DNA of 35,145 nucleotides from a virus. Position 1 is the stretch's first letter; every line of letters starts with the position of its first letter. The translations under genes and the position numbers were made by a program. This document shows positions 8,689 through 35,047 of the stretch, piece after piece. Location of the stretch: positions 1 to 35,145 of IMG/VR virus record IMGVR_UViG_3300031566_000194; one strand, given 5' to 3'. The notes below the pieces were generated by a model. That model was not told the DNA's origin. It did not search any database and saw only the letters and a program-made list of their open reading frames with translations.

Positions 8689-8752
8689 GTGAAAGGTACA
8701 AGGCCGTGTACCTCTTCTCAGGTTCTAAGATAATACAGCGGCAAAACGCTGT
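8536..8752 (+). ncRNA. Structured leader: five tandem stem-loops before the packaging operon
   Basis: Five hairpins follow one another. H1: GGGGTGGGCGA 8536-8546 with TCGCTCACCCT 8558-8568 (11 bp, two G-U). H2: GCCGGGGTGGATAC 8585-8598 with GTATTCACCCCGGC 8609-8622 (14 bp, one G-U, loop ATGATGCCTA). H3: GCCGCCTT 8659-8666 with AAGGTGGC 8671-8678 (8 bp, one G-U, loop TGTG). H4: AGGTACA 8694-8700 with TGTACCT 8707-8713 (7 bp). H5: ACAGCG 8735-8740 with CGCTGT 8747-8752 (6 bp). The run ends 18 nt before the first packaging-operon start at 8771. No tRNA or known riboswitch consensus is recognised. It may be a cis-regulatory leader, an ncRNA, an RNA-processing region or a packaging signal; the role is inference. 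Confidence 0.5.
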
Positions 8753-8770
8753 CAAACAGGATGGAGTTTT

Positions 8771-9561: not shown

Positions 9562-10741
9562 GGCGCTGCTGGAGCAGGGAAACAAGGCAATCGTGCCGAA
9601 AGGGAGACGCGCCGGCGGAACCCGCCTCGGCGGTCACCGTTTCGTCGAAGCCCTCCAGGATAAAGAAGGGGGCCGGGGGTATCTCCTAGTCGCCCCGACC
9701 CTTGAAACCTGCCGCCGTGTGTTCGATGAGACCAAGGATATTGCCCGCGCTTGCGCACTGCACCTGGGCGAGAAGCAATCCCCCTACCCCACGCTCTACT
9801 CCCCGACGGGTTCCTGGCTCACCGCTCGCTCCGTGACGAGTTCCGTTGACCTCGGCCTCCAGCTTCGAGGGTTGGGGAAGCATATCTACGGGGTGATGGT
9901 GGACGAGGGGGCGTTCCTGCCGCCTTGGGCTTGGAAGGTTATCCGCCCGGTGATGACGGATAACGACGCCTGGCTCTACTTCACCGGGACGACCCACGGC
10001 GAGGGTCTCTTTAAGATGCTCTACGACTGGGGGCTAGACCCGGGGCGCCCGGATTACTACTCCCGGCGAATGCCGACCAGCTCTAATACGTTCCTCTCGG
10101 AGGAACAGATACGGGAGTTGACCGAGGACGTGCTACCCGAGGACCGGCCGGCGGAACTGGACGCCCTGTTCGTTCCCCGGTCGGGCCTCGTGTTTATCCA
10201 CTTCCGCCGGGATGTCCACACGCGGGTCGCCTTCACCGAGGGCCAACCGATGTACGGGGTGGACTGGGGGTTCACGAATCCGGCTGTGGTCCTGGCGATG
10301 GTCCAGGGCGGGGACCGGGTACAGGTGCTCGGGGAGTTCTACCGCTCGGGGTGTACCCCGGACCAGCACGTCGAGGCGGCGAAGGCGATGCAGGAGCGGT
10401 ACGGGCGGGGGTTGTGCTACTGCGATCCGTCGAGGCCCGAGATGATTACGGCGTTCCAGCGGGCGGGGATACCGGCAACCGGGGCGAAGAATGAACTGCT
10501 CCCTGGGCTCGACCACCTCCGCAAGCTCCTCGGGAACTACGAGGGGGTGGAACCCCGGCTTTTCGTGTCCCCGGAGTGTACGAACCTGCTCCGGGAGATG
10601 GCTGAATACGCTTATCCTGAGCGGGGCGGCGAGGAGCCGAGAAAAGAAAACGACCATGCAATTGACAGTTTACGGTATGCGTGCTATTCTTCTCGTGGTG
10701 GTGTTTCGCGTCAGGTGAGGTCTAGGAGGTACAGGGAATGA
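9437..10741 (+). CDS. Terminase large subunit (ATPase/nuclease)
   Basis: 434 residues from ATG 9437; GTG 9488 and GTG 9524 are alternatives, all inside the small-subunit gene. The ATPase is marked by a Q-like LTPTQAEIRALL, a deviant Walker A (KGRRAGGT), Walker B with catalytic Glu (YGVMVDEGAF) and a coupling motif (FTGTTHGEG). The RNase H-like nuclease is marked by YGVDWGFTNPAVVLAM, CYCDPSRPE and NDHAIDSLRYACY, whose aspartates would hold two metals. It cuts concatemeric DNA and pumps it into the prohead through the portal encoded next door. Walker A lacks the usual GKT/GKS and instead has arginines before GGT, a deviation seen in many phage terminases. Confidence 0.95.
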   Translation: MNFIERASQLIAWRLSPVRAGGVGKAPEQVGIILTPTQAEIRALLEQGNKAIVPKGRRAGGTRLGGHRFVEALQDKEGGRGYLLVAPTLETCRRVFDETKDIARACALHLGEKQSPYPTLYSPTGSWLTARSVTSSVDLGLQLRGLGKHIYGVMVDEGAFLPPWAWKVIRPVMTDNDAWLYFTGTTHGEGLFKMLYDWGLDPGRPDYYSRRMPTSSNTFLSEEQIRELTEDVLPEDRPAELDALFVPRSGLVFIHFRRDVHTRVAFTEGQPMYGVDWGFTNPAVVLAMVQGGDRVQVLGEFYRSGCTPDQHVEAAKAMQERYGRGLCYCDPSRPEMITAFQRAGIPATGAKNELLPGLDHLRKLLGNYEGVEPRLFVSPECTNLLREMAEYAYPERGGEEPRKENDHAIDSLRYACYSSRGGVSRQVRSRRYRE

Positions 10742-31009: not shown

Positions 31010-31038
31010 GACCGTAAATTATTTTCAGTGATTTTGCT

Positions 31039-31061
31039 AACCCCCGTATTATCGGGGGTTT
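31039..31061 (+). terminator. Intrinsic terminator ending the late operon
   Basis: AACCCCCG (31039-31046), loop TATTAT, CGGGGGTT (31053-31060), an 8-bp stem followed by a T and then ACGTTATAAA. CGTAAA (31013-31018) can extend it with TTTACG (31059-31064). It lies between the last late gene and the next promoter. Confidence 0.75.
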
Positions 31062-31088
31062 ACGTTATAAAATACTTTGAGGTAATAC

Positions 31089-31117
31089 TTGACAAACTGG
31101 AAAAACTAGGCTATAAT
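31089..31117 (+). promoter_or_regulatory. Consensus sigma70-type promoter
   Basis: TTGACA at 31089-31094, a 17-bp spacer, and TATAAT at 31112-31117: a perfect match to the consensus -35/-10 at the best spacing. A transcript would begin near 31124 and run to the small genes from 31174. Such a strong, host-type promoter suggests early expression by host RNA polymerase. Confidence 0.88.
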
Positions 31118-31467: not shown

Positions 31468-31475
31468 TAGCCGAG

Positions 31476-31512
31476 ACGGGGGCCTAGCCCCCGTCGCCCG
31501 GATAAACCGGGC
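31476..31512 (+). repeat. Intercistronic double hairpin module, copy 1
   Basis: ACGGGGGC 31476-31483 pairs with GCCCCCGT 31487-31494 (loop CTA), followed by GCCCGG 31496-31501 with CCGGGC 31507-31512 (loop ATAAA). The same order of two hairpins recurs at 31814-31854. The first arms are identical in both copies. Confidence 0.65.
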
Positions 31513-31524
31513 CTGACGAGGCTT

Positions 31525-31544
31525 AACTAACAGGAGGAGAGATG
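31525..31544 (+). promoter_or_regulatory. Shared translation-start cassette (four copies)
   Basis: AACAGGAGGAGAGATG precedes starts at 31174, 31542, 31886 and 32083. The copies at 31542 and 32083 are identical over 27 bases extending upstream into GAGGCTTAACTAACAGG. The cassette places AGGAGG about 5 nt from ATG, giving strong and equal translation of these small genes. Confidence 0.75.
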
Positions 31545-31808
31545 GCAATAGGAACGATTCGCAGGGCTACCGACGAGGACTACGCGAGGCTGAATGCCGC
31601 CGCGCTTCGGTTCGCCAAGCTGCACAACCTCAAACTGATGGCGGATGAAACCGGGGTGCCCGCGTACGCCGCGGTGGAAACCGAGGTGGACTGGTCGGGA
31701 AATCGGCACCTCCGCCAGTTATGGCTTCGGTGCTTCCGCCGGGCCACCCGCGAACCGCAGGCTGATACCGTGGCCTACGGTTACGTGGGGTGGTCTGCGA
31801 AATCATAG
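31542..31808 (+). CDS. Unknown small protein of the early operon
   Basis: 88 residues with the shared SD cassette. It opens with a helical basic stretch (YARLNAAALRFAKLHNLKL) and has tryptophans later (VDWSGNRHLRQLWLRCFRR). No family recognised. The hairpin module follows its stop. Confidence 0.7.
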   Translation: MAIGTIRRATDEDYARLNAAALRFAKLHNLKLMADETGVPAYAAVETEVDWSGNRHLRQLWLRCFRRATREPQADTVAYGYVGWSAKS

Positions 31809-31813
31809 CCGAA

Positions 31814-31854
31814 ACGGGGGCTTAGCCCCCGTCCGACCGGGGATGGTTTCCCGG
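31814..31854 (+). repeat. Intercistronic double hairpin module, copy 2
   Basis: ACGGGGGC 31814-31821 pairs with GCCCCCGT 31825-31832 (loop TTA); CCGGG 31837-31841 pairs with CCCGG 31850-31854. Flanks on both sides of the first hairpin also match copy 1 (TAGCCGARACGGGGG). Confidence 0.65.
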
Positions 31855-31885
31855 CGTTGAATAAGGCAGACCAACAGGAGGAGAG

Positions 31886-32071
31886 ATGATAGTAGAAAGA
31901 GAAAGCGAATTTGCTAAGTATCGGATATTAAAAACCAATGCAATTTTTAGGGAGGGTCAGATTGTAACTGTTTTTAGAACGAGTGAGAACGGGAAGGCCG
32001 CAGTTGAAGAGAAACCGGGCTCACCGTTCCGTTGGCTATTGTCTTGGGATAAGCTAGAGAGGCTTAACTAA
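31886..32071 (+). CDS. Unknown small protein, AT-rich
   Basis: 61 residues with the shared SD cassette. The N-terminal half is AT-rich and shows a beta pattern (YRILKTNAIFREGQIVTVFR). It ends R-L-N at a CTTAACTAA that matches the sequence before the 31542 gene, suggesting the upstream gene once had the same kind of end. Function unknown. Confidence 0.65.
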   Translation: MIVERESEFAKYRILKTNAIFREGQIVTVFRTSENGKAAVEEKPGSPFRWLLSWDKLERLN

Positions 32072-32082
32072 CAGGAGGAGAG

Positions 32083-32331
32083 ATGATAGACGTAACGGAG
32101 AAGATGGTGCAGGGCTGGACCTGCGGGGACCTTGAGGCGTTCCTGGATGCTCGGGAAACCGGCTGCTACGGCTTTTTCTGCGGATTCCGGGCGCAGTTCG
32201 AGGAGAGGGCGCTGGAGGCATTCGAGCTTCTGGCCGCCAGGTGCGGTAAGATGCGCGTTGTGGTGGAGAAGATGAGCGTCGGGGATGAGGCCGTGATGCT
32301 GTACCCCGGCGACGGGAAAATTCAGCCGTAA
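32083..32331 (+). CDS. Unknown small protein of the early operon
   Basis: 82 residues, fourth gene with the shared SD cassette. Helical centre (LEAFLDARETGCYGFF, RALEAFELLAARCGK) and a basic end (KMRVVVEKMSVGDEAVML). No motif I can name. Confidence 0.68.
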   Translation: MIDVTEKMVQGWTCGDLEAFLDARETGCYGFFCGFRAQFEERALEAFELLAARCGKMRVVVEKMSVGDEAVMLYPGDGKIQP

Positions 32332-33438: not shown

Positions 33439-33758
33439 GAAACCGGGAACTTGACGCGATATTCCTCGGCTGTGAGGTGTACGGTATCCCGTTCCACGAG
33501 GTCGCGGCCCTGGCCGGGGTAAGTGAAAAAACGGTCTGGCGTGTCCGGGAGATGACCCGCGCAAAGGCGAGCACCGTCCGGGCGTTCCTGGTGATGGCGG
33601 ACAAGCTCGCCGCCGAGGGGAAGCTGGTACGGGAGGCCGGGGAGAAGGCGTTGCGGTTGATACCCCCGGAGTTCATAGCTAACATGGCCGAGCGGTACGG
33701 GTTCGTGGCACCCGACGCGAGGCGTATCCTGGAGGAGGTCAACGGTGAACCTGCCTGA
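33435..33758 (+). CDS. Helix-turn-helix DNA-binding protein
   Basis: 107 residues. The HTH is clear: PFHEVAALAGVSEKTVWRVR near residues 19-38, followed by basic AKASTVRAFLVMADKLA. Likely a small transcription regulator or DNA-binding accessory. Its operon starts at a strong promoter; no operator-like palindrome is obvious at 31089-31117. It overlaps the nuclease gene by 14 nt. Confidence 0.75.
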   Translation: MRNRELDAIFLGCEVYGIPFHEVAALAGVSEKTVWRVREMTRAKASTVRAFLVMADKLAAEGKLVREAGEKALRLIPPEFIANMAERYGFVAPDARRILEEVNGEPA

Positions 33759-34737
33759 GACGCGCCCGACGGTCCTGCACCAGACGGGAGTAAACGACCT
33801 GCGGACCTGCGCCCGAAAATACTACAACTCCCAGGTGCTCGGGATCGAGCAGCGCGAGGTCTCGGACGCGCTCAAGGACGGCCAGGCGCTCCACAAGGCG
33901 CTCGAATCCGCCGCCGGCGAGCCCGACCTGGACAGCCAGCGGATGGCCGCCTTCGCCCAGGTCGCCGCGGACCTCGGGGTCGGGAGGATACAGCCCCTCA
34001 ACGCGGCACGAGTCCGGGCGATGCTCGTTGGGTATTTCGCCCGGTGGGGGAAGCTCCAGACGTGGGCCAAGGAATACACGGTCGAGGGGCCGATTCCAGG
34101 GGTGGAGGGGATGACCTTCACCGGCCGGATTGACCGGGTGGTCCAGGTCCCCGGCGGGTTCGCCGTCGTGGACTACAAGACGGCCTCGAAGGTGGACGGG
34201 AGCTACCTCGAAAGTCTCCAGCGTCAACTCCAAGGGCCGCTTTACGCTCACTACCTCGAACAGGAGCGGGGGATGGAGGTCGTCGAGATAATCTACGACC
34301 TGATAGTCAAGCCCCCGTCGGGGATGGTTCCGAAGATGGTAGACGTGGACCACGACAACGAGGTGCCGGGGTCGCATCAAATGAAAAGCGGCCCGGCGAA
34401 GGGTAAGTGGCGGGAGAGCCGCCGTGAGAACATGGACGAGTTTGAGCGCCGGTTACAGGGGCTCTACCAAGACCGCCTCGACGAGATGATTCTACGCCCG
34501 AGCTTGCTTATCACGCGGGAGCACCGGGCCGACGCGCTGAATGAGCTGACCTTAGCGGCCCGTGAGGTGTTGTGGCGGCTGGACACGGGGAACTGGGGCG
34601 AGAACCGCCGGGCCTGCGAGGGCACGTTCTACCCTTGCCCGTTCCGCCAGCTCTGCTACTCGCGGTACTCACCGCTTGTCATGCAGAACGAGTACCGGCG
34701 GCGCGAGGAAACCCTTGACACGGCTGAGGAAATTTAG
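33745..34737 (+). CDS. PD-(D/E)XK nuclease, Cas4/RecB-like, probable Fe-S
   Basis: 330 residues from GTG 33745. The nuclease core is visible: FTGRIDRVVQVPGGFAVVDY with D and then DYKTA (D-x-K), followed by a helix with QRQLQGPLYAHYLEQ (Q motif). N-terminal C (LRTCARKYYN) together with ACEGTFYPCPFRQLC (C-x6-C-x5-C) would make the four-cysteine Fe-S cluster as in Cas4 and AddB, though the usual spacing before the last pair is C-x2-C-x5-C. Such enzymes process DNA ends in recombination and replication. No helicase or CRISPR array is adjacent here. Confidence 0.8.
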   Translation: MNLPETRPTVLHQTGVNDLRTCARKYYNSQVLGIEQREVSDALKDGQALHKALESAAGEPDLDSQRMAAFAQVAADLGVGRIQPLNAARVRAMLVGYFARWGKLQTWAKEYTVEGPIPGVEGMTFTGRIDRVVQVPGGFAVVDYKTASKVDGSYLESLQRQLQGPLYAHYLEQERGMEVVEIIYDLIVKPPSGMVPKMVDVDHDNEVPGSHQMKSGPAKGKWRESRRENMDEFERRLQGLYQDRLDEMILRPSLLITREHRADALNELTLAAREVLWRLDTGNWGENRRACEGTFYPCPFRQLCYSRYSPLVMQNEYRRREETLDTAEEI

Positions 34738-34750
34738 TAAAGTCTGCGTA

Positions 34751-34845
34751 GGGTAGGGTGGGGCGAAAAAGTTTAAGCTGGCCAGCGCCCCGCCGTCAAC
34801 CGCCCCTCCCTACCCAGGAAGGCAACAGACGGCGGGGCTTTATTT
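34751..34845 (+). ncRNA. Interlocking stems: attenuator or pseudoknot candidate
   Basis: GGGTAGGGTGGGGCG (34751-34765) pairs with CGCCCCTCCCTACCC (34801-34815), 14 of 15 positions. GCCCCGCCGTC (34787-34797) pairs perfectly with GACGGCGGGGC (34828-34838), followed by TTTATTT (34839-34845). The order A-B-A'-B' means that they either form a pseudoknot or exclude each other; GGGGCG in A can also pair with CGCCCC in B. The second stem with its T-rich tail is terminator-like and ends just before the SD for the 34859 gene. Confidence 0.55.
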
Positions 34846-34858
34846 AACCGGAGGAGAC

Positions 34859-35047
34859 ATGACTGCAGCCGACCTCGTGAAAGAAATCCAGGACCTCATC
34901 TTCCAGGGCACGACACAGCCCACCGCCGAAGTCGAGGTAGACATACCGGCTGACTTCATAAACCGCGAAGAATACGGGGCGGGATTCAAGATAGGGCGGG
35001 TATTTGCTCCCGCCCACGGACAAGTCTTATACCTGGAGGAGAAGTGA
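34859..35047 (+). CDS. Small unknown protein after the interlocking stems
   Basis: 62 residues, ATG with GGAGGAG upstream. Helical start (ADLVKEIQDLIFQG), then beta strands (AEVEVDIPADFI, FKIGRVFAPAHGQVLYLEE). No family named. The structured region directly upstream could attenuate its transcription. It overlaps the next gene by 4 nt. Confidence 0.65.
   Translation: MTAADLVKEIQDLIFQGTTQPTAEVEVDIPADFINREEYGAGFKIGRVFAPAHGQVLYLEEK

Follow-up and report, generated by a model that had tools for sequence, protein, structure and literature searches.

What might two interlocking stems do in the 121-nt gap between an exonuclease gene and a 62-aa ORF of a viral genome, and would an RNA made from them act as a regulatory switch, as a terminator or as a molecule in its own right? 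The gap belongs to the IMG/VR virus record IMGVR_UViG_3300031566_000194, the whole of which (35,145 bases, ~62% G+C) was analysed here and is referred to as the window. Based on the sequence and on modelled folds, we favour, at roughly even odds (about 0.5), a promoter-proximal and conditionally terminated leader, that is, an attenuator in which one of the two helices would compete with the terminator stem.

Genome setting of the element

Nearly every gene of the window is carried on the + strand, in the order terminase, portal, tape measure (mid-window) and lysis-like genes. The lysis-like genes are followed on their 3' side by a terminator-like hairpin at ~31040, a promoter at 31089-31117, a run of small genes and finally the exonuclease gene that ends at 34737. 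The hairpin (CCCCCGTATTATCGGGGG, directly continued by TTTA) and the promoter, a perfect TTGACA-17-TATAAT match, occupy 31030-31117 and probably mark where the block of late genes gives way to that of early genes. A terminal repeat that would speak for circularity of the contig was searched for, and none was found.

The gene upstream of the element (33745-34737, + strand) encodes a PD-(D/E)XK exonuclease (PF12705, E 1.3e-21; phrog_1218). Downstream lies the 62-aa ORF (34859-35047, + strand), which is preceded by the Shine-Dalgarno (SD) motif GGAGGAG (34850-34856) and starts with ATG at 34859; its product matched no family.

Two crossing stems beyond chance expectation

The first-pass annotation had described two interlocking stems ordered A-B-A'-B' in this gap, and both were recovered on the + strand. 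Arm A (GGGTAGGGTGGGGCG, 34751-34765) pairs with arm A' (CGCCCCTCCCTACCC, 34801-34815) at 14 of 15 positions, with a single T-T mismatch and 35 nt separating the arms, and arm B (GCCCCGCCGTC, 34787-34797) pairs with arm B' (GACGGCGGGGC, 34828-34838) at all 11 positions across 30 nt, a loop that contains A'. The order along the strand is thus a crossing one; in agreement with the earlier description, TTTATTT (34839-34845) and the SD motif come next, and then ATG. The third pairing choice proposed there is also real: within 34757-34794, GGTGGGGCG (34757-34765) and CGCCCCGCC (34786-34794) match at 8 of 9 positions. Moreover, the segment CCCCTCC of arm A' (34803-34809) is complementary to the SD motif at 6 of 7 positions, and a possible consequence of such pairing is a further control on translation.

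Chance pairing, which had been put forward together with a plain terminator as an alternative, was rejected for the stems by shuffling. The 121-nt gap was subjected to 5000 dinucleotide shuffles: 2 of these contained a stem of at least 14 pairs, 18 contained a perfect 11-bp stem, and 3 contained two stems of at least 10 pairs each that crossed; when B/B' was held fixed, a crossing partner of at least 14 pairs appeared in 4/20000 shuffles. A scan of the whole window returned one further crossing pair of at least 10 pairs, which is located in the portal gene and has long loops, and when 1.1 Mb of fetched DNA from other phages was scanned (2.24 Mb over both strands), the crossing stems with a T tail were mostly A+T-rich or of long span. 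In nested folding the gap shows an unremarkable minimum free energy (z -0.94 on the + strand and -1.27 on the - strand), since such a fold leaves no place for the second stem.

A promoter-like site with a predicted start at arm A

The strongest clue to the element is one that the first-pass annotation had missed, namely a sigma-70-type promoter match at 34715-34743 on the + strand, with the -35 box TTGACA (34715-34720), a 17-bp spacer and the -10 box TAAAGT (34738-34743), in agreement with the consensus at 10 of 12 positions. Over both of its strands the window contains four sites of the form TTGACA-N16..18-TANNNT, compared with 0.12 expected; the four include this one and the perfect promoter at 31089. 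From the -10 box we infer initiation at ~34750, seven bases further on and at the base preceding arm A. The predicted transcript would accordingly read A-B-A'-B'-UUUAUUU, followed by the SD motif and the 62-aa ORF, and the coincidence of the promoter start with arm A is the best evidence that these parts form one transcript unit. The match may itself be fortuitous, since its -35 box falls in the final codons of the exonuclease coding sequence.

Further TTGACA-17-TANNNT sites are present at 10662-10690 (+ strand), close to where the terminase gene ends, and at 8727-8755 (- strand) in a gap. A weak divergent promoter-like site, TTGACG-18-TAAACT (9/12), was also noticed on the - strand at 34799-34770, inside the element; RNA from this site would be antisense to arm A.

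Computed folding order and coexistence of the helices

The best nested structure was computed for prefixes of the transcript beginning at 34750, using this single sequence. For the prefix ending at 34797, the best fold is a hairpin that joins B to the 3' part of A and contains the third pairing (-21.1 kcal/mol); at 34815 it has given way to A-A' (-33.8 kcal/mol), and at 34838, where B' is complete, B-B' becomes the best fold (-39.9 kcal/mol). In the full leader the B state lies at -41.0 kcal/mol versus -39.8 kcal/mol when A is forced, a gap of 1.2, and B has a mean base-pair probability of ~0.9, A one of ~0.1. A direct nested path from A to B has its saddle at -1.7 versus -35.1, a climb of more than 30 kcal/mol, so that the order and speed of synthesis would set the outcome unless a pseudoknot forms.

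The topology for such a pseudoknot is present: B' could pair with B inside the A-A' loop, giving an H-type arrangement with linkers of 21, 3 and 12 nt in which A-A' and B-B' could coexist. The duplex energies of the two helices are -30.5 and -25.3 kcal/mol.

A terminator-like end with two weak features

The description of the element's end as terminator-like holds in part. Its 11/11 stem is G+C-rich and is directly followed by TTTATTT, as in an intrinsic terminator, but the loop is 30 nt long rather than 3-8 nt, the U-tract is broken (UUUAUUU), and a standard terminator scan did not include B-B' in its list. An unrelated viral contig (L116) has a short-loop terminator whose 3' side is a 20-nt exact copy of B' plus tail. 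As this contig was selected by an exact search for the B'-plus-tail pattern, the copy has little statistical weight; it does show that terminators can have a 3' side of this kind. We consider the L116 site an ordinary terminator and not a relative of the element. The match retrieved by an exact search for the arm A pattern was dismissed as well, as a chance match in which the other arms are missing.

Search for relatives and RNA families

The first-pass annotation had called the arrangement attenuator- or riboswitch-like. A riboswitch identity found no backing, as an Rfam search of the element matched no riboswitch or other RNA family, the best hit being a meaningless one to mir-197 (18.2 bits, E 2.6). 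A hammerhead reading of the element was rejected by the same search and by geometry. HDV-like ribozymes share the crossed order P1-P2-P1'-P2' with the element, but an HDV-like fold was discarded too: Rfam gave no match, and the P3 hairpin is absent, with AAC (34798-34800) alone separating B and A', 3 nt into which P3 does not fit once A-A' is fully paired.

Relatives were equally scarce at the DNA and protein levels. A DNA search of phages and plasmids found none that is close, and neither the exonuclease, searched against IMG/VR and GTDB genomes, nor the 62-aa protein retrieved a close relative; the best terminase matches in IMG/VR and GTDB genomes reached 39% on a segment, plus 47% over one 41-residue stretch. 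Searching IMG/VR with the TET-associated glycosyltransferase (TAGT) of the window returned 80 loci at ~50% identity that have essentially only the ParB-like/TAGT cassette in common with it, and an exonuclease match was absent from all 80. Exonuclease homologues in named phages (20-27% identity) have no comparable element beside them, and their next gene either overlaps or starts within 53-86 bases. Judging from these element-free loci, the exonuclease family is not regularly accompanied by the element.

A proposed conditionally terminated leader as the best explanation

From these observations we infer termination and regulation along the following lines. RNA polymerase would start at ~34750 from the promoter at 34715-34743, and the 3' half of A would pair first with B in a transient hairpin. 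A' would then oust B to build the long A-A' helix, leaving B in its loop. B', the last arm to emerge, would either pair with B and create the terminator-like stem ahead of UUUAUUU, or come too late. Should A-A' block the terminator-competent B stem in time, polymerase would continue through the 62-aa ORF and past it; formation of B-B' would instead release an RNA of ~95 nt. The choice might be biased by a protein, a small molecule or polymerase speed, or by nothing at all.

Sequence and computed folds by themselves place competing helices between a promoter-like site and a gene, as in an attenuator, and the consensus-like promoter starting at arm A supports the attenuator-like topology more strongly than was first claimed. 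We prefer the leader reading because the stems exceed chance, the promoter start hits the first base of the element, the folding of A-B-A'-B' is ordered, B' plus tail is the exact end of the L116 terminator, and the SD motif and ATG lie directly 3'. The reading is weakened by the absence of homologues, and hence of covariation, in the collections searched, by the 30-nt loop and the UUUAUUU tract, both of which are weak for an intrinsic terminator, by the named-phage exonuclease loci that have no such element, and by the 62-aa ORF, which is without known function and hence gives no hint of a regulated pathway. It is rather unlikely, in our estimation, that the element represents a new class of phage leader that opens with the antiterminator arm, exchanges strands through three helices in turn during synthesis and serves as a timed or ligand-sensing pseudoknot switch before the 62-aa ORF.

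Alternative explanations

The reading that we rank next, and consider clearly less likely, is a stand-alone phage small RNA of ~95 nt with its own promoter and a B-B' end, folded into a stable H-type pseudoknot and acting in trans or binding a protein. The promoter start and the terminator-like end bracket the structured segment exactly, the three linkers do not preclude both helices at once, and the summed helix energies go beyond either nested fold (-41 kcal/mol) even when a typical pseudoknot penalty is charged to the sum. Nevertheless, the SD motif and ORF immediately 3' are a better fit to a leader, and among exact antisense matches in other parts of the window the longest has 13 nt, is G+C-rich and makes no convincing target. 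Ranked below this, and improbable to our mind, is an ordinary terminator plus promoter at the boundary of operon segments, where A-A' would merely stabilise or delay without any regulation. Such a boundary would account for the terminator-like B-B' with TTTATTT, and the perfect-consensus promoter at 31089-31117 shows that promoters of this type stand elsewhere in the window; it leaves the additional crossing 14-bp stem as an event with a chance probability of ~2e-4 given B-B', and the order found here is promoter, terminator, gene, whereas a simple boundary would have the terminator before the promoter.

Two further accounts appear highly improbable. At the DNA level, the gap might be a replication origin, an alternative also named in the first-pass annotation, in which a G-rich transcript forms an R-loop, or a protein-binding site near recombination genes; it does adjoin the exonuclease gene, and the start of the transcript is G-rich, but a GC-skew switch is absent from the window and neither iterons nor an A+T-rich unwinding stretch were seen in the gap. 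Close to this in rank, and the last that we would choose, is an RNA akin to the put RNAs of phage HK022, which would bind RNA polymerase and make it ignore later terminators. Like putL, which sits at promoter +1 (PMC9378689), the element is a structured RNA right at the start of a predicted transcript in an early gene region. The put RNAs, however, are ~70 nt long and consist of two stem-loops with conserved residues (PMC9378689), while the element consists of crossing stems and has no known sequence similarity to them.

Comparison with known switches and significance

Among known systems, terminator/antiterminator attenuators and strand-exchange transcriptional riboswitches (PMC10907184) come closest to the leader reading, with a promoter-proximal leader, competing helices and a later G+C-rich helix that is followed by U residues, an SD motif and a gene. 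In contrast to these, the phage element is without a known aptamer, ligand or conserved family, and its competing A-A' helix encloses B in the loop instead of pairing directly with the terminator arm. The guanidine-IV riboswitch features a pseudoknot that involves the terminator loop (PMC10907184), and in the element, too, the upstream arm A pairs with A' in the loop of the terminator-like B-B'. The phage element differs in having no Rfam match and in its 14-bp A-A' helix, which probably competes with the terminator rather than decorating it.

Should the leader reading be true, the locus would represent an orphan attenuator of phage origin that works by a simple three-step strand exchange, and phage genomes without close relatives would harbour regulatory RNAs that are missing from family libraries. 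A terminated small RNA, if that is what is made instead, may act as a new regulator encoded by the phage.

Other features of the window

Neighbouring small genes carry two type II hammerhead ribozyme motifs in their leaders: the one at 31807-31875 exceeds the Rfam gathering score (39.9 bits), and the one at 31469-31527 stays below it (28.3 bits, E 0.001). Since their catalytic cores deviate, with UUGAAUA for CUGAUGA in the former and GAGA for GAAA in the latter, they may be inactive or degenerate. In addition, a 27-nt leader, GAGGCTTAACTAACAGGAGGAGAGATG, is repeated at 31518-31544 and 32059-32085 before two small genes, and a shorter one, AACAGGAGGAGAGATG, precedes other small genes, which suggests duplicated gene-leader units. 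At the other end of the window, a ParB-like gene and the TAGT gene form a pair at 751-2008, in a region whose G+C content (~40-52% in 1-kb windows) departs from that of the remaining genome. Nearly every one of the 80 viral contigs fetched by the TAGT protein carries this pair too, with ~50% identity, and the pair looks like a mobile DNA-modification cassette.
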